A stretch of DNA of 64,000 nt from contig WGNA01000021.1 of the NCBI GenBank assembly GCA_016124755.1, positions 1-64,000 on the forward strand, in the 5' to 3' direction. Below, piece by piece: positions 888-9,390 of this stretch. Source of the DNA: Bacteroidota bacterium. Lineage in GTDB: Bacteria > Bacteroidota > Bacteroidia > NS11-12g > UBA9320. Positions within the stretch are counted from its first letter, which is position 1. Every line of letters starts with the position of its first letter. The notes under the pieces are model-generated. The model was not told the DNA's origin and ran no database searches. It saw only the letters and a list, made by a program, of their open reading frames with translations. The translations under genes and the position numbers were made by a program.

Positions 888-3800
888 ATGAAAAGACATT
901 TACGAATCAATGTCCTGAAGCTGTTTAGCTTCGGGCTACTGTTGGCCTCGACCCATATAGCAGTGGGTCAATCTTATTGTGCATCTGGAGCATCCACAAC
1001 GTATGACTCCAAATGTGACAGAGTTCGAATTCAGGGAAATACTCTTTCTCTTGACAACAAGTCTAATCCTACGACGTGTGAAACCTATTCTGATTTCACA
1101 AGTTTTGTTGCTGTAGACCTTACAGCCGGTCAGGATTATACGATCATCCTAACGAATGGCACCTGTGGTGGAGCCTATACCCGTTATGGTAATGCATGGA
1201 TTGATTACAATCAGGATGGAGTTTTCGACACATGGGAGATGCTCGGAAAAGGTAATGTTGGAAGCTCAACAACCGGGTACGAACACGTGATTAACTTCAA
1301 AGTTCCTTGCAACATTAAAAGTGGTAACACTCGAATGAGATGTATTGTAATTGAAGGAACGGCAACTAATCCATGTGGATCCTACACTTACGGTGAAACA
1401 GAAGATTACACAGTGAATCTTGGTATTTCGGGAACGCTTGCAGCAGGATTTTTCATGGTTGATACCGCCTATGTGAAAACTGCGGTTGCTCTGGTCAATT
1501 CGAATCCGGAAGGGTATTTCTACCATGGTTGGGATATCGGAGACGATGGTAAAATTGATTACACTACTGTTAATGCAACTCATAAGTTTAATTCTCCTGG
1601 ATCCTATTGTGTGAGACTTTATTCTGAAAATTGTTTGGGTCGTGATTCAGTTGTACACTGCCTCACTATTATTAAACCAACCCAACCACCTGTGGCAGAT
1701 TTTATCGCTGATCGTGGTGAAGTGGAACTTTACAACACCTTTAAACTAACCGATCTTTCAACGAATGGAGCTATCTACTGGGATTGGTTTTTATATCTGG
1801 AAGTAGATTCTGCAGGTACCCGAATCGACGGTGATGATTATCCTGACCTGAGAGGAGGGGATGAAACTGTAAATCAAAATCCCGAGATTTTTACGGCTAA
1901 AGCAATTCCCGGTTTTCCGGATGTAGGAAAATGGTGTGTTGGTTTAACTGCATCTAATGATGTTGGTGCTTCGGTTACACTAATCAAGAAGAACTATGTT
2001 GAAGTAATAAAAGGATGTGATGTTGAAATGGGGCCCGGAACGGTAACCGGCATTCCAGGAAATGTTATCACATGTGAAGCCGGTACTTTAAAGAATAAGG
2101 ACGATGGTTCAGGAAATTATTCATCTCCGGAAGCGAATTTGGATGCTTTGATTGCTCCTTGTGGTGCGAAGACTATTACATTCACATTTGATCAATGGAA
2201 GGTTAAAGCAAACGTTAACCTTAAGGTTTATGACGGTCAGAATGCGAATGGAACTCCGCTTCATCCAAAGAGTGGTTTTACCGCATCAGACACACCCTCT
2301 GCACCTCTGGTAGCTCAATCAGGTGCTCTTTATTTTCTGTGGAATTCATCCGGTACTCAAACGGACAAGGGATTTTTAGGACACTGGACTTCTACCATTG
2401 GTTCTCAGGCTCCACCGACTGCTAAATTTAGCTCCCCAGACACATTGTATAATGCTGTTTACAACACATTCACCAACACTTCTTTGAACGCTGGCGGAGA
2501 AGTATTTTTTGATTGGACAATTGATGGAACTTCCATGGCAAATACAAGGGATATGGAACAAATATTCCTGAGCAATGCCACTTATAATGTCTGTTTAAAT
2601 GTTGAAACATGCGCAGGTAAAGACAAGTGGTGCAAGAATGTGGTGGTTTCTCCTATTACCTCTAAGGCTAAACTTGATTTCACAGCCGACATTCGCCGTC
2701 CTAAAGCAGGTGAAAAAACTACTTTCACTGCGGAAACAGATAAAGCAAATTCTTTTCAATGGACATTCTTTCCGGGAACTACTGTTCAGTTCGTAGACGG
2801 AACCAATGCAAATTCAAGAAATCCGGTTGTGACTTTTAGTGCTCCTGGTAATTACACAGTTTCATTAAAAGGCTGGAACAATTTGTCTAAAACGGATTCT
2901 GCGGTTTCTTACAATCAGGTAATCCGAAACCAATACATTATTGTAATTGATTACTGTAAACCTTTGATAAGCGTTACAAGTAGTGCAGACATTGCAACTA
3001 CGAGAGTATTACTCGAAGACCGGGGTAATCCGAAGAAAGCATTAATCGACAACTCTTCTTCTGAGTCTGACTATACCGATTATACTGATGACGATAATGT
3101 ACGACCAGCCAATCTCACCTTTGGTGGAGTTTACGACATTACCCTCTTTAGAAAGACATCCGTTAATAAGATGTCCAGAAAGATCTGGATTGATTGGAAT
3201 ATTGATGGTGATTTTGATGATTACGGTGAATTGGTGGCTACTGAAACACCGGCGAATTCAAGCTCATTTACGACCTCATTCACAGTTCCTGATCTTTCAT
3301 CATCATTTGAAGGAAAGACCAGAATGAGAATCGGAACCAGTTACAATGCCGATCCGAATATGCCATGTGGAGCGTCAAGTGGAGTTAAAAATGCGAACAG
3401 AATCGGAGAGTTTGAAGATTACACACTGATTCTTTCTAATGACAATACCTTCCCGTATATTACTATGAATGGAGACGACACCGTTTATGTTGAAGTTGGT
3501 AAAACCTATACAGATCCTGGTGCCATCGCCACTGACCCAACGGAAGGAGACATAACTTCAAGATTGATTACAACATCGGATGTTGACGCTACTGCAGCGG
3601 GTATTTACTATGTAACTTATTGTGTTAAGGATGCATCCGGTAATGAAGCACCTTGCAAAACCAGAGTTGTTTATGTAGTAGTGGATCAATCTGCACCGGT
3701 ATTGGCACTAAAAGGAAATAACCCTGAATATGTTGAGGTGATCACAGGAAGTTATACAGAAGCAGGTTGGACTGCGACTGATGTTACCGATGGCAATCTG

Positions 3801-4985
3801 GAAACAGCTGTTCAAGTGAGTGGTACTGTTAACATCTTTAAAATTGGCACTTATAATTTGGTTTACTCTGTTCAGGATGCTCAAGGTAATTTGGCAACTG
3901 CAAAACGAACTGTAATTGTTCGGGATCAGGTGCTACCAACCATCACGAATGATGATATCACTGTAAAAAATGGAAGGAATGTAGTTCAGGTTCAATTGCA
4001 ATCTGTTTTTGTTGATAGAACTGTGCCCAATGACAATTATAACAACGGCACATTCGGACCGATGTTCGAATACAAGATAACACCGGCAAATGCGCAGGGT
4101 GAAGCCGATGTAGATACAAGAGTTAAGGGAACAACGATCGTAACCTATTCTGCGACCGACGAATCCGGAAACTCAGCAACGCTGATCATTGATTATGTCG
4201 TTGAAGATTTCATTGCTCCGGTTATCAGTTTGAATACACTGGATTCTGTTTATCATCCGGTAAACTCAAAATACACTCCTGTGGAAGCAAGTGTGACCGA
4301 TAACTTCTATAATGAAACACAGATCTCCCTTGTGAGAACATCCAATGTAAACCCCTACATTCTCGGCAAGTACACTGATACTTATACCGCAACTGATGCC
4401 TCCGGGAATCAGGCAATTAAAAAGAGATGGGTGATTGTTTACGATAGCAGTGCACCTGAAATTTCAGGCAAATTTGGCCCAATTGCCAGAATAGGGTTGT
4501 TCTCAAACGTTAGTCTTCTCGATTATCTTAAAATAATTGACAACTATGATTCTCCATCTGATTTGTTTAAGAACATATCGGTTATTGATAACGACATGAA
4601 TGTGTACGAAGAAGGATTCTACGCTGCTACATTCGAGACTACTGATAAATCAGGTAATCGTTCGTTACCATTTACACTTTATATTGATGTAAACAGAAAG
4701 TATGAAACGATAAACGGAATTTCTGATGTAGAAAATGGATCACTTTTAAAAGTTTATCCAAACCCATCAGAGGGAATATTTAACGTATTGGTGGATTTGC
4801 CAACAAGTGAATCTGTAACAATTCAGATTTACGATGTGGTTGGAAATCTGGTTCAGAATGTAACAACTCAGACAATGCAGAGTGGTTCATTCAATGTAGA
4901 CATGTCATCTAATTCTTCCGGAGTGTACTTCGTTAAAATGATGGTAGCCGATAAAGTTTACAATCAGCGAATTATTATCAAATAA
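888..4985 (+). CDS. Large multidomain T9SS-secreted surface protein
   Basis: This 1365-residue protein has a signal peptide (hydrophobic LLLASTHIAVG, cleavage near residue 27). In order I see: a GEVED-type domain at about 103-177 ending GETEDYTVNL; a PKD-like domain at about 184-264; a CUB-like segment at about 374-504 (LKVYDGQNANG); further PKD-like domains to about 690; a second GEVED domain at about 764-849; several DUF5011-type Ig-like domains at about 854-1184 with GNEAPC/ATDESGNSAT motifs; and a T9SS type A sorting domain at about 1284-1365 (VYPNPSEGIFNV). Such domains are typical of secreted adhesins or matrix proteins, but no catalytic motif is seen and the function is open. It is a tandem paralogue of the partial gene at the left edge. 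Its own promoter and terminator make it monocistronic. Confidence 0.92.
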   Translation: MKRHLRINVLKLFSFGLLLASTHIAVGQSYCASGASTTYDSKCDRVRIQGNTLSLDNKSNPTTCETYSDFTSFVAVDLTAGQDYTIILTNGTCGGAYTRYGNAWIDYNQDGVFDTWEMLGKGNVGSSTTGYEHVINFKVPCNIKSGNTRMRCIVIEGTATNPCGSYTYGETEDYTVNLGISGTLAAGFFMVDTAYVKTAVALVNSNPEGYFYHGWDIGDDGKIDYTTVNATHKFNSPGSYCVRLYSENCLGRDSVVHCLTIIKPTQPPVADFIADRGEVELYNTFKLTDLSTNGAIYWDWFLYLEVDSAGTRIDGDDYPDLRGGDETVNQNPEIFTAKAIPGFPDVGKWCVGLTASNDVGASVTLIKKNYVEVIKGCDVEMGPGTVTGIPGNVITCEAGTLKNKDDGSGNYSSPEANLDALIAPCGAKTITFTFDQWKVKANVNLKVYDGQNANGTPLHPKSGFTASDTPSAPLVAQSGALYFLWNSSGTQTDKGFLGHWTSTIGSQAPPTAKFSSPDTLYNAVYNTFTNTSLNAGGEVFFDWTIDGTSMANTRDMEQIFLSNATYNVCLNVETCAGKDKWCKNVVVSPITSKAKLDFTADIRRPKAGEKTTFTAETDKANSFQWTFFPGTTVQFVDGTNANSRNPVVTFSAPGNYTVSLKGWNNLSKTDSAVSYNQVIRNQYIIVIDYCKPLISVTSSADIATTRVLLEDRGNPKKALIDNSSSESDYTDYTDDDNVRPANLTFGGVYDITLFRKTSVNKMSRKIWIDWNIDGDFDDYGELVATETPANSSSFTTSFTVPDLSSSFEGKTRMRIGTSYNADPNMPCGASSGVKNANRIGEFEDYTLILSNDNTFPYITMNGDDTVYVEVGKTYTDPGAIATDPTEGDITSRLITTSDVDATAAGIYYVTYCVKDASGNEAPCKTRVVYVVVDQSAPVLALKGNNPEYVEVITGSYTEAGWTATDVTDGNLETAVQVSGTVNIFKIGTYNLVYSVQDAQGNLATAKRTVIVRDQVLPTITNDDITVKNGRNVVQVQLQSVFVDRTVPNDNYNNGTFGPMFEYKITPANAQGEADVDTRVKGTTIVTYSATDESGNSATLIIDYVVEDFIAPVISLNTLDSVYHPVNSKYTPVEASVTDNFYNETQISLVRTSNVNPYILGKYTDTYTATDASGNQAIKKRWVIVYDSSAPEISGKFGPIARIGLFSNVSLLDYLKIIDNYDSPSDLFKNISVIDNDMNVYEEGFYAATFETTDKSGNRSLPFTLYIDVNRKYETINGISDVENGSLLKVYPNPSEGIFNVLVDLPTSESVTIQIYDVVGNLVQNVTTQTMQSGSFNVDMSSNSSGVYFVKMMVADKVYNQRIIIK

Positions 4986-5009: not shown

Positions 5010-5036
5010 AAGGGGGCTGATGCCCCCTTTTTTTAT
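5010..5036 (+). terminator. Rho-independent terminator
   Basis: AAGGGGGC (5010-5017) pairs with GCCCCCTT (5022-5029) over a TGAT loop and continues into T-rich sequence. It ends the 888-4985 transcript before the sigma operon. Confidence 0.9.
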
Positions 5037-5108
5037 TTTTGAAAAAAAGCAAAAAATTATTGCAACCATTCTAAGTTTTTGTGTCTATCAACCAACTGAG
5101 TTATCAAT

Positions 5109-5651
5109 TTGAGCAGCGAGGAAGAACTTGTTAAGCAATGTGCCAACAAGAACCGGGAAGCTCAAAAAGAACTCTTCGAGAAATACGCTTCAAGGATGAT
5201 GGGCATTTGCATAAGATACATGTCGAATACGGAAGACGCCAAAGACGTCTTGCAGGACGGCTTTGTAAAAGTCTTTATGCAAATAGAATCATTCAAGTTC
5301 AAGAGTTCCCTCTACACCTGGATGTCCCGCATTTTTGTAAATCTATGCATTAACCGATTAAACAGAACGGTTCAAACGCTGGAGTTAACTCAGGAACATG
5401 AATCCTCAACGTTAAACGAGGAAAATGAAAATCAACCCATTTGGGGAAACCTTAATAGAGATCAGATCATGTCAGAAATATTGGCATTGCCTGATATCTA
5501 CAGGGTGGTGATAAACATGTATGCTATTGATGGGCTGACCCATAGTGAAATAGCGAAGGCTCTCAACATTAGTGAAGGCTCCTCAAAAAGCAGGTTGTCG
5601 AGAGCACGTGTAATACTGAAAGAAAGAATTAATACCCTGAAGAAATCTTGA
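5109..5651 (+). CDS. ECF RNA polymerase sigma factor
   Basis: A 180-residue sigma-70 family protein of ECF size. Region 2 is at about 10-80 (AQKELFEKYASRMM, DAKDVLQDGFVKVF, SLYTWMSRIFVNLCINRLNR). Region 4 is at about 115-175, with the helix-turn-helix THSEIAKALNISEGSSKSRLSRAR. It would direct RNA polymerase to a small regulon, probably including its own operon. The start is TTG at 5109; no in-frame ATG lies early enough to keep region 2. The stop overlaps the TTG start of the next gene (TTGA), so translation is probably coupled to the membrane-anchored barrel protein downstream, a likely regulator of this factor. Confidence 0.93.
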   Translation: MSSEEELVKQCANKNREAQKELFEKYASRMMGICIRYMSNTEDAKDVLQDGFVKVFMQIESFKFKSSLYTWMSRIFVNLCINRLNRTVQTLELTQEHESSTLNEENENQPIWGNLNRDQIMSEILALPDIYRVVINMYAIDGLTHSEIAKALNISEGSSKSRLSRARVILKERINTLKKS

Positions 5652-6985
5652 AAGATCTGAACGACATAATGGATGACGCAATCAGATCGGCCTTTGCTGA
5701 TTTCGAGGGATCTGTGCCCACAGATTCTTGGGAGAAAATCTCGGGAATATTAGACGGCGATAAAAAACGACCACTTATGTGGTGGTGGGTTGCTGCTTGC
5801 TTTTTCATTGTGTTCTCCGGAATCGGAATCTTTATTCATTTGAATTCTGAAAAAGCCATTGAGTCTGCCCGACACTATTCAACCAAAGACCATTCAAATC
5901 GTGTTTCTGAATCTTCAAAAGAGATAATCTCTCATCATTCAGCACCAATAAATAACCAAGTTGAAAGTGATTTCAACTACAAACCTCATTCTGCTCAAGA
6001 GCATACATCAGAATTCGTTGTGAAACCAAAAATTGGTGACAAGATTCAGTTGATTGACTCTTCAGTTCAAAGTGTGTCAATCAATTATTCATCTGAACAA
6101 ATAGGTGAGATTCAAAATGCAATTGACCATCCTGAACTGCGTAATGCAGATGAAATTCTTAAGGCCATTTTTAACGCATCTGTGATAGGTGCAAACGATT
6201 CTTATAATATACCTACAACAATCAACAATGGACTAAAGCAGAAAGATTCTTCCTTCCCACAGGATAAGGGTAAGTGGGATCTGGGTCTTTCTGCTTCTCC
6301 TGCGTTGGCTGGTCTGATGGTAAGAACTAATGGCAAACTCAATGGATTACTGAATAAAAATTATAATAAAATATCTGAAAATGGTGAATCCTTCGGGTTC
6401 AGCTATCAGGTGGGAGTGTCGGCAAACCGATATATTACCAAAAATATTTACTTCGGCTTCGGTTTGAAATATGACGTCGTAAAAGAATCAACGCATTACG
6501 ATTACATCATTGATTCTAACCCGGAGTTCAATTTGGCCAAATCAAAAATTACCGGCTACACGGCCAGACGACCAGAGCAAATCGAACATGTGCAACATAA
6601 CGGCAACAATGAATATCAATTCCTTGAAGTACCATTAAAATTTGGTATCGTTGTTCCCGTAGTCCGAAATAGATGGGATTTCAGATCTGAGATGTCTCTC
6701 CAATACATGTACATGTTAAACAAAACAGGATCTAAGGTTGATCCGACTTATCTTGAATTGACAGATCTAAAATCCGATCAGAATTACAATAGACAGAATT
6801 TGGGTACGACCTTAAACATTGGCATGTATCGATATGTTAAAAGCAACCTCCAGTTAGGTGTTATTCCTTACTATCAGATTGCTTTTAATTCAATACGCAA
6901 TAACCAATCTGTGTTGAAGGATCGTCCGATTAGTTATGGTTTTAATGTTAGTGCGGTTTACCTGATCAGAAGACGTTTGCATTGA
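5648..6985 (+). CDS. Inner-membrane-anchored outer-membrane beta-barrel protein, putative anti-sigma regulator
   Basis: This 445-residue protein has an unusual layout. Residues 1-42 look cytoplasmic and carry the short motif FEGSVPTDSWEKISGIL, a kind I recall at the N-terminus of many Bacteroidota proteins encoded next to ECF sigma factors. Residues about 43-65 form one transmembrane helix with a WWW start. Residues about 66-205 are a polar, low-complexity stretch. Residues about 206-445 alternate like a beta-barrel (GFSYQVGVSANRYITKNIYFGFGLKYDVV). Inference: the N-terminus holds the sigma factor, the linker crosses the periplasm and the barrel sits in the outer membrane. The TTG start is shared with the sigma stop codon, and the gene ends inside the next start the same way. 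No cleavable signal peptide is evident. Confidence 0.8.
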   Translation: MKDLNDIMDDAIRSAFADFEGSVPTDSWEKISGILDGDKKRPLMWWWVAACFFIVFSGIGIFIHLNSEKAIESARHYSTKDHSNRVSESSKEIISHHSAPINNQVESDFNYKPHSAQEHTSEFVVKPKIGDKIQLIDSSVQSVSINYSSEQIGEIQNAIDHPELRNADEILKAIFNASVIGANDSYNIPTTINNGLKQKDSSFPQDKGKWDLGLSASPALAGLMVRTNGKLNGLLNKNYNKISENGESFGFSYQVGVSANRYITKNIYFGFGLKYDVVKESTHYDYIIDSNPEFNLAKSKITGYTARRPEQIEHVQHNGNNEYQFLEVPLKFGIVVPVVRNRWDFRSEMSLQYMYMLNKTGSKVDPTYLELTDLKSDQNYNRQNLGTTLNIGMYRYVKSNLQLGVIPYYQIAFNSIRNNQSVLKDRPISYGFNVSAVYLIRRRLH

Positions 6986-9390
6986 AAAAATTGTTCTCCA
7001 TATTGACACTAATACTTTTCAACCTGATGGTTCAGGCGGAAGGTGTTTTGCCTTTGGGAAGCAATCAAAGTGATCCGGTAGTTGCAAGTACGACCAATGG
7101 AGAATCAATTTATACCATCACTTACGACAACCAAAAAGTTTATCATTTAAATTATTGGAATGGACTTGAGTGGACCGACAAGGGAACTATAAAAGATCTT
7201 CCTAAACACGGAGAAAACGGAAGCGGTGAATTCACAGTTCGAGATATTATTTGGTTTAACAACAACCTTTATCTCTTAGGTGACTTTTACATTAGTTCCG
7301 GGGTTGATCAGTCTGATATGGTCTATCTGTTTGATGGTACCGGTTGGAGTGATATTAGTGATGATGTTATTCGCAACAGCAGATCTCTCAACCGCTTCGT
7401 CGTATTAAATAACAAGTTGTCTTTAGTCGGAATTTTTGAATCCCTGAAAAGCAACCTTATTCAGTGGGATGGGAACAGTTGGTCTGCAATCGGATCTTGG
7501 TTGACGTACAATCCCAACAAGGATTATATTATTGATGCCGAAGTTTATAATGGCAAACTCTATGTTTCCGGTCAGTTCACACGAGTTGGTGCAACCGATC
7601 CATATTTTACTGCCGTTCTGGAAAATGATAACTGGAATTCAGTGTTGCATCCTCCTTTTCTTAACGGAAGTTATTATTTTGCTTCAACCACAAACGGACT
7701 TGTACTAACCGGTTTCCCCTTTGGTACTGATATCGTTCAACGATTTAATGGTGCCGGTTGGGATAATTTATCAGATGGACTCGAGAATGTTTCAGTAAAT
7801 GAGTTCTGGGATGTAGTCGCAGATCAAAACTCAGTCTACATTTCCGGATCTTTCCACGACAACAATGTGAATAAGGATTTCTATCTAATGAAGTGGGATG
7901 GAAAGAAATGGGACTTCATTTATTGGCCCGAACCTTCTGGAACATTTAAGCTTATTCAAAGTAATAACAACATATATCTTGTTGGTGATTTTGAAATTTT
8001 CGGAATACAGAATATTGCTCAGCTCAGTTCAGGTAAAGCCCTTTTGAGAGGTTTGGCATTTGAAGATCTTAACGGAAATTGTTTGTTTGACGTTGGTGAG
8101 CCGTTAGTGAAGAATGAAGTCGTGAGATTAAATCCGGGAAATCACATGTTCTGGACAAATAACGAAGGAGCATTCAATATTCCCGTCGAATTAGGTAATT
8201 ATGAAATAGACTTCCCGTCACTCAGGAAATACGAAGCGTCTTGTAAATCATCTAACGTGCAGGTGTCCGCAAATGAAAATGGAAACTATGAATTTTCCAT
8301 AGGACTTGCCAGAAAATCGCAATACACCGATTTAAAGGTTGAGTCCGGTTTTGCCAACGGATATTATCTGATAGACAACCGGAATAATTCAGGTATGTTT
8401 AAAATTACCAATAATGGTAATGCACCGATTAAAAAAGCGCAATTTGATCTTGAGTCTTCAGATATGTGGTCTGAAGTTTCCTTTAATCCACCGTATGATA
8501 TTTATGAAAACGGACATTACATCTGGTTAATCAATGATTTGGGTATTGATGAAGTTTTCACAATTCAAATAAATGGGAAACTAAAATCAGGGTACAATGA
8601 ATCATTGTTACTGAAGTACAATGCGATAGTTATAAACCCGGAAGGAGATGATTATTCATTCGACAATCAAAATGCACTCACTTTTGAGAAAGGTGAACCG
8701 CTTCCTCCAATCTATAAACAATGCGGTAACGGTTCATATATTTATGAGGAACAACCGTTAAATTATAACATTCGATTCCAGAATGTTGGTAATACTGTTG
8801 TTCATAAAGTTACCTTAAAAGATACCCTTGATAGTGAAATTTGGATAGGTAGCAAAGGGATTGAATATCTGACCTCTCACGATGGGGCTAATCTTAAATC
8901 AGACTTTATCAATAAAGGTAACAACGAATATTGTTATGTATTAACATGGGTATTTAATGATATTAATCTTCAAGACAGTTCAACCGATTTTGATAAGAGT
9001 GTTGGATTTGTTCAGATGAATATAAACCTTGACAAAGGAAGACATCCAAACGGCACGGTGATTTGCAATGATGCGGATTTACAATTTGACAATCAGGAAC
9101 CTTATGTAACGAATGAAGTCTGCGCAGTGGTAAGTTCAATTGGAGTAAGTCCAGATCCGATCAAGTCTACAGTTTCAATTTATCCTAACCCATCATCCGA
9201 TATTGTTCATATTCGTAATCTGAGTAATGCGGATATTCAGATATCTGTTCTTGACATTAACGGTAAAGTAGTTATTGAGCAAAACGTGAAAGCCGGAGAT
9301 ACTTACGATTTCAGCTCTTCCGGTTGGTCTAAGGGTGTTTATCTTGTGAAAGTTGATGGTTACGAGTGCCACAAACTCATTCTACACTAA
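6982..9390 (+). CDS. T9SS-secreted protein with kelch-like and DUF7619-type regions
   Basis: An 802-residue secreted protein. The signal peptide is MKKLFSILTLILFNLMVQAEG. Residues about 25-350 hold repeats with recurring W-DG/W-G and VYNGKLYVSGQF elements, like a propeller. Residues about 355-440 resemble a SdrD-B/carboxypeptidase-like Ig domain (AFEDLNGNCLFDVGEPLV). Residues about 585-710 look like DUF7619 (PLNYNIRFQNVGNTVVHKV..LKDTLD). A T9SS sorting domain fills about 725-802 (SIYPNPSSDIVHI). Third gene of the sigma operon: its TTG start overlaps the stop of the barrel gene by four bases. It is therefore a plausible regulon product or surface partner of the barrel. No enzyme motif is seen. 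Confidence 0.87.
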   Translation: MKKLFSILTLILFNLMVQAEGVLPLGSNQSDPVVASTTNGESIYTITYDNQKVYHLNYWNGLEWTDKGTIKDLPKHGENGSGEFTVRDIIWFNNNLYLLGDFYISSGVDQSDMVYLFDGTGWSDISDDVIRNSRSLNRFVVLNNKLSLVGIFESLKSNLIQWDGNSWSAIGSWLTYNPNKDYIIDAEVYNGKLYVSGQFTRVGATDPYFTAVLENDNWNSVLHPPFLNGSYYFASTTNGLVLTGFPFGTDIVQRFNGAGWDNLSDGLENVSVNEFWDVVADQNSVYISGSFHDNNVNKDFYLMKWDGKKWDFIYWPEPSGTFKLIQSNNNIYLVGDFEIFGIQNIAQLSSGKALLRGLAFEDLNGNCLFDVGEPLVKNEVVRLNPGNHMFWTNNEGAFNIPVELGNYEIDFPSLRKYEASCKSSNVQVSANENGNYEFSIGLARKSQYTDLKVESGFANGYYLIDNRNNSGMFKITNNGNAPIKKAQFDLESSDMWSEVSFNPPYDIYENGHYIWLINDLGIDEVFTIQINGKLKSGYNESLLLKYNAIVINPEGDDYSFDNQNALTFEKGEPLPPIYKQCGNGSYIYEEQPLNYNIRFQNVGNTVVHKVTLKDTLDSEIWIGSKGIEYLTSHDGANLKSDFINKGNNEYCYVLTWVFNDINLQDSSTDFDKSVGFVQMNINLDKGRHPNGTVICNDADLQFDNQEPYVTNEVCAVVSSIGVSPDPIKSTVSIYPNPSSDIVHIRNLSNADIQISVLDINGKVVIEQNVKAGDTYDFSSSGWSKGVYLVKVDGYECHKLILH

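Follow-up and report, generated by a model that had tools for sequence, protein, structure and literature searches.

What role is played by an operon of Bacteroidota that encodes an ECF sigma factor, a protein with a membrane helix and a C-terminal beta-barrel, and a T9SS-exported protein, and could the barrel protein pass an outer-membrane event to the sigma factor encoded next to it? This question is raised by positions 5109–9390 of the analysed window, which comprises the first 64,000 nucleotides of contig WGNA01000021.1. We consider it probable that the barrel protein is a Dma-like anti-sigma factor which gates a regulon of T9SS surface proteins, including the co-encoded propeller-Ig cargo, and that the operon is autoregulated.

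Operon layout and conservation

Positions 5109–9390 of the window contain three genes:

5109..5651, + strand: ECF sigma factor, 180 aa, TTG start (Pfam Sigma70_r2, Sigma70_r4_2; TIGR02937)
5648..6985, + strand: Dma-like two-membrane putative anti-sigma factor, 445 aa, hereafter the 5648 protein (architecture; profile match to Bacteroidales counterparts)
6982..9390, + strand: T9SS cargo, 802 aa, with signal peptide, N-terminal beta-propeller, Ig-like domains, DUF7619 and type A sorting domain

The set of sigma factor, barrel protein and T9SS cargo recognised in the initial annotation is borne out by domain matches and gene coordinates. The sigma protein matches Sigma70_r2 (7e-13) and Sigma70_r4_2 (7e-15), and the presence of regions 2 and 4 without region 3 identifies it as an ECF sigma factor. 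Both gene junctions consist of a TTGA overlap, which makes translational coupling across them plausible.

Among 38 genomes of the family, 33 contain homologues. The order sigma gene, barrel gene and cargo gene of about 800 codons is kept in all 20 fetched family loci, indicating that the arrangement is not due to chance. Downstream of the cargo gene, most of these loci feature an opposing comF gene followed by thiL. The barrel gene is split in one of the 20 loci and the cargo gene in another. In relative G019 (L044:3192-4547), the barrel gene is present as two overlapping ORFs (142 and 309 aa), reflecting either a frameshift or an assembly error.

The three-gene module also occurs in other families and orders. 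The host genome itself harbours three copies, on contigs C35 (the window), C1 and C20; the two further copies (L233, G000:C1:154500-162500; L234, G000:C20:198000-205500) both have the layout sigma, barrel and T9SS cargo. Copies of the C1 type group together as one clade in each of the three trees, those of sigma, barrel and cargo (support 0.977, 1.0 and 1.0, respectively), which indicates that the module travels as a unit. A scan of the genome contigs with a single protein yielded no relative; since the barrel alignment was too variable to serve as scan query, the sigma alignment was used instead. SprA is encoded in the host genome, showing that a T9SS is present, and at least 150 T9SS domains are listed for it.

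Architecture of the 5648 protein

The 5648 protein can be divided into four regions:

5648..5773, + strand: N-terminal cytoplasmic region with conserved W28 motif, putative sigma-binding segment (conservation)
5774..5839, + strand: inner-membrane helix, residues ~43–64 (hydropathy peak 2.20; model helix 25–79)
5840..6262, + strand: polar, mostly disordered periplasmic linker, residues 65–205 (pLDDT <50 over most of 75–205)
6275..6967, + strand: 8-stranded outer-membrane-type beta-barrel, residues 210–440 (model pLDDT ~90; structural matches)

The protein has a single hydrophobic helix, with the best 19-residue window starting at residue 47 and the residues KKR on its N-terminal side. The linker spans about 141 residues and is not conserved in sequence. 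An AlphaFold2 model based on 13 sequences features helices at residues 2–17 and 25–79, a low-confidence linker and eight long strands within residues 210–440. The barrel superposes on the outer-membrane barrels OprF, NspA, OmpA and OmpW with Z values of 16.6–17.8. A Pfam search with the window protein alone gave no barrel hit, and when both barrel profiles were run against the sequences of solved structures, only chance matches were returned.

The short N-terminal motif noted before, SWEKISGIL, turned out to be this protein's version of a conserved D/E-W-x-x-I-x-x-x-L motif, in which W28 is invariant in 17 of 17 aligned sequences. In the distant relatives L062, L063, L072, L098 and L058, and in L038 of the same family, the DW-type motif is tandemly repeated before the membrane helix in two to about four copies. 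One such anti-sigma factor could hold several sigma molecules.

Hydropathy, the AlphaFold2 model and the superpositions thus agree with the initial annotation, which had described a single helix, a linker of about 140 residues and a C-terminal barrel. Sequence analysis and structure prediction lend good support to the proposed tether of both membranes, encoded beside a sigma gene: the predicted barrel resembles outer-membrane barrels, and by eye no cleavable signal peptide pattern was found.

The T9SS cargo protein

The C-terminal end of the cargo carries the feature by which it was assigned to T9SS export:

9178..9360, + strand: T9SS type A C-terminal sorting domain, residues 733–793 (Por_Secre_tail 3.7e-12)

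The matches to TIGR04183 (41.7 bits, cut-off 23) and PF18962 (46.8, cut-off 27) identify the protein as type A T9SS cargo. It also matches DUF7619 (6e-19), and its signal peptide was judged by eye. Cargo length is about 800–825 aa across families. In the model of the protein, an N-terminal propeller precedes Ig-like domains, with the sorting domain at the end. A Foldseek search placed integrin ectodomains and kelch propellers at the top, with low TM-scores that were about 0.26 for the integrins. We rejected homology to integrins, as the likeness at this TM-score corresponds to the arrangement of propeller plus Ig-like domains. Based on the modelled fold, a role as surface adhesin or receptor is most likely for the cargo.

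Promoter motif and putative regulon

Two elements were identified upstream of the sigma gene:

5012..5033, + strand: hairpin and T-run (GGGGGC-TGAT-GCCCCC-TTTTTTT), intrinsic-terminator-like, ending the upstream T9SS adhesin gene
5061..5088, + strand: ECF-type promoter motif TGCAACC-N15-GTCTAT, ~20 nt 5' of the sigma start (conservation upstream of sigma genes)

Most relatives have the same terminator-like arrangement 5' of the sigma gene. The motif TGCAACC-N15/16-GTCTA is located 41–49 nt before the sigma start in all 19 family loci whose upstream DNA was read, and also in L055. L062 and L063 feature TGCAACC with GTCAAA at −49 and −52.

Among the 38 genomes, TGCAACC-N15/16-GTCTA occurs at 60 sites, compared to 13 for the reversed and 13 for the scrambled pattern. 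About 28 of the 60 sites belong to sigma operons, and the 32 remaining sites were all read: 11 are located within genes and 21 are intergenic. Fourteen of the intergenic sites are followed, at a distance of at most 70 nt, by the start of an ORF beginning outside the site, and 13 of these 14 precede genes for secreted T9SS-type proteins or adhesins, the exception being RNase G. At an assumed base rate of 5%, this corresponds to p ~1e-16, a value which is overstated since sites in genomes of relatives do not count as independent and the classes were assigned by hand. All eight complete products pass the T9SS type A or B cut-offs. In the other five of the 13, a contig end or a broken frame interrupts the product; among these, L174, L178 and L180 yielded PKD/GEVED-type matches, while L169 and L179 comprise signal-peptide starts only. 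In the control, 11 of the 13 scrambled-motif sites fall inside genes and none is intergenic and within 70 nt before a T9SS gene. This recurrence of the operon's promoter motif before other T9SS cargo gives good support to the suggestion that the third gene is an output.

In the host genome, the two exact sites precede the window operon and a gene for a 216-aa T9SS protein (C5:1689). Allowing one mismatch gave nine sites, compared to 15 in the reversed control, and the one-mismatch sites at C13 and C23 are regarded as leads only. The sigma gene of the C1 paralogue is preceded by TGCAACC-N16-GACTA. This type of motif has six sites in the host genome, three of which, besides the C1 operon, lead to T9SS genes (C1:155704, C22:20834 and C20:304591). 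The last of these (L247:665-3876) is a gene pair, DUF1800 and DUF1501-T9SS, with the T9SS domain in the second gene. The GACTA sites at C31 (174 nt away) and C35:10757 (inside thiL) were set aside as background, and no clear promoter was found for the third paralogue, C20. Judged from these sequences, the paralogues appear to share the −35 element and to have paralogue-specific −10 elements (GTCTA and GACTA).

Directly 5' of the operon, the window encodes a T9SS adhesin of 1365 aa (888–4985) with GEVED, PKD and surface Ig-like repeats, and several relatives have similar adhesins 5' of the sigma gene. A paralogue of this adhesin on C13 has a one-mismatch promoter motif. The adhesin at 888–4985 itself was rejected as regulon member, as its promoter region contains no TGCAACC-type motif. 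A 211-aa ORF at 44–679 with a type A sorting tail (C35:449-676) resembles the C-terminal part of another copy of this adhesin.

Proposed mechanism and alternative explanations

From gene order and its conservation, domain architecture, barrel kinship and the motif with the genes behind it, we infer an autoregulated signalling operon made up of the three genes. The N-terminal segment of the 5648 protein would hold the sigma factor at the inner membrane, while the C-terminal barrel would sit in the outer membrane, with the flexible tether joining both ends. A change at the outer membrane would serve as the signal and free the sigma factor. The latter is the presumed reader of the TGCAACC-N15/16-GTCTA promoters and would transcribe its own operon, and thus the 802-aa cargo, together with a few other T9SS surface proteins.

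Two explanations concern the signal and are compatible with Dma-like gating. That the system senses envelope stress in general, in the manner of the known Dma type, with its T9SS targets forming a protective coat of this lineage, has close to an even chance. It fits with the response of the Phocaeicola vulgatus pair to an envelope-acting toxin (PMC9308784) and the altered vesiculation caused by Dma1 and Dma2 (PMC13088901), whereas the exact-motif sites have no chaperone or envelope-repair gene behind them and the targets are nearly all T9SS cargo. It is somewhat unlikely that the co-encoded cargo is the input, being displayed via T9SS, binding the barrel and reporting an outside ligand or, as feedback, T9SS traffic. 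The cargo is fixed in the operon at a similar length across families, its fold resembles adhesin or receptor ectodomains, and monophyly of the type-2 paralogue group in the sigma, barrel and cargo trees points to modules being inherited as units. A precedent is PorA of Porphyromonas gingivalis, for which an action on PorXY-SigP has been proposed (PMC7712824). On the other hand, the third gene of the Bacteroidales loci codes for an unrelated NigD-like lipoprotein, so that the class needs no cargo, and G038 has a cargo relative without adjoining sigma or barrel gene. A self-contained circuit, in which the anti-sigma factor reads its own integrin-like T9SS partner or T9SS traffic and the paralogues are insulated by GTCTA and GACTA with separate regulons, is a further reading that we regard as unlikely.

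The remaining two explanations challenge Dma-like gating itself. The motif might belong to another regulator or sigma factor, leaving the sigma factor of the operon with other targets; the host genome encodes three or more sigma factors of the group, and G025 has a site while its barrel gene was undetected. This is improbable given that most genomes of the family carry the motif at their sigma operon, that one or more sites occur in each of the 33 genomes in which the barrel gene was matched and that the paralogue has a different −10 element along with its own targets. Even more improbable is a periplasmic barrel or a cleaved protein, either of which would abolish the two-membrane tether. A barrel anchored in the inner membrane would indeed have to reach the assembly machinery, but the helix is preceded by a long charged N-terminus with basic residues on the inside, a cleavable signal peptide pattern is absent by eye and the barrel matches those of the outer membrane. 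Dma-like gating of a T9SS regulon thus remains our preferred explanation.

Comparison with known systems

In HHalign, the profile of the window family matched a profile built from 21 Bacteroidales proteins (Tannerella, Parabacteroides and others) with a probability of 99.7 and an E-value of 3.8e-25; this match spans part of the barrel (profile columns 248–442). The conserved DW-type N-terminal motif, compared visually, is common to both groups. The Bacteroidales proteins are encoded just after ECF sigma genes, and the third gene is NigD-like in the three loci checked; Dma1 is reported to control nigD1 (PMC13088901).

Dma proteins are, as summarised in PMC13088901 with reference to a PNAS 2024 article, a dual membrane-spanning anti-sigma class of Bacteroides. 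The view that no mechanism had been worked out for such N-terminal motifs next to sigma genes is outdated, as Dma1/Das1 and Dma2/Das2 (PMC13088901) and a Phocaeicola vulgatus sigma/anti-sigma pair (PMC9308784) have been characterised genetically. The 5648 protein shares with the class one helix, a long disordered tether, a predicted C-terminal barrel of outer-membrane type and the adjoining ECF sigma gene, and its N-terminal segment is a putative counterpart of the sigma-binding region of the class. Membership in the Dma class is strongly suggested, with sequence kinship running to the inferred Bacteroidales counterparts and the comparison with the B. thetaiotaomicron Dma proteins based on their described architecture. 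The Dma2 operon likewise has three genes, the third of other function, but this gene (BT_1557) encodes a DUF4943 protein, whereas a T9SS propeller-Ig cargo is found here. A further difference is that the putative regulon here consists of T9SS cargo in a lineage with a T9SS. The cognate sigma factors of the Dma class belong to group ECF21; the window sigma factor was compared with general ECF models and matches these.

In M0N98_03760-61 of Phocaeicola vulgatus, the anti-sigma factor likewise has a predicted periplasm-spanning segment and outer-membrane barrel, and it is encoded 3' of the ECF sigma gene (PMC9308784). EcfO and its partner in B. fragilis (2013, as cited in PMC9308784) are similarly described there as having a periplasm-spanning barrel anti-sigma factor after the ECF sigma gene. 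The roles reported in these accounts are toxin and oxidative stress responses, with no T9SS link.

PorXY-SigP with PorA of Porphyromonas gingivalis also ties an autoregulated ECF sigma factor to the T9SS (PMC7712824, PMC4800418), with a T9SS CTD protein (PorA) within the signalling route (PMC7712824). As a difference from the window operon, activation of SigP occurs through a two-component system, and the genes that SigP controls encode T9SS machinery rather than mainly cargo; no two-membrane anti-sigma factor is described (PMC7712824, PMC4800418). The SM6 promoters of Flavobacterium psychrophilum (PMC9723704) are an ECF-type class linked to the T9SS and to one sigma/anti-sigma pair. They differ in that the −10 element is CGT and T9SS components are among the targets, with no TGCAAC motif in the text of PMC9723704.

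Taken together, the central architecture is already known as that of the Dma class (PMC13088901; PMC9308784), which has been described from gut Bacteroides and linked to vesicles, PULs and stress (PMC13088901, PMC9308784). Novel are the three-gene module, kept in 20 of 20 family loci and in other orders, with three paralogous copies in one genome; the ECF-type promoter TGCAACC-N15/16-GTCTA ahead of the sigma gene; the same motif preceding T9SS-exported surface proteins away from sigma operons; and a second paralogue with GACTA, which also has T9SS targets. In a lineage other than gut Bacteroides, the Dma architecture is hereby tied to surface proteins of the T9SS. What is gained is a promoter code that can be read from the sequence (TGCAACC combined with GTCTA or GACTA), a short list of targets and a candidate ligand within the same operon, which makes it directly testable what the barrel senses.
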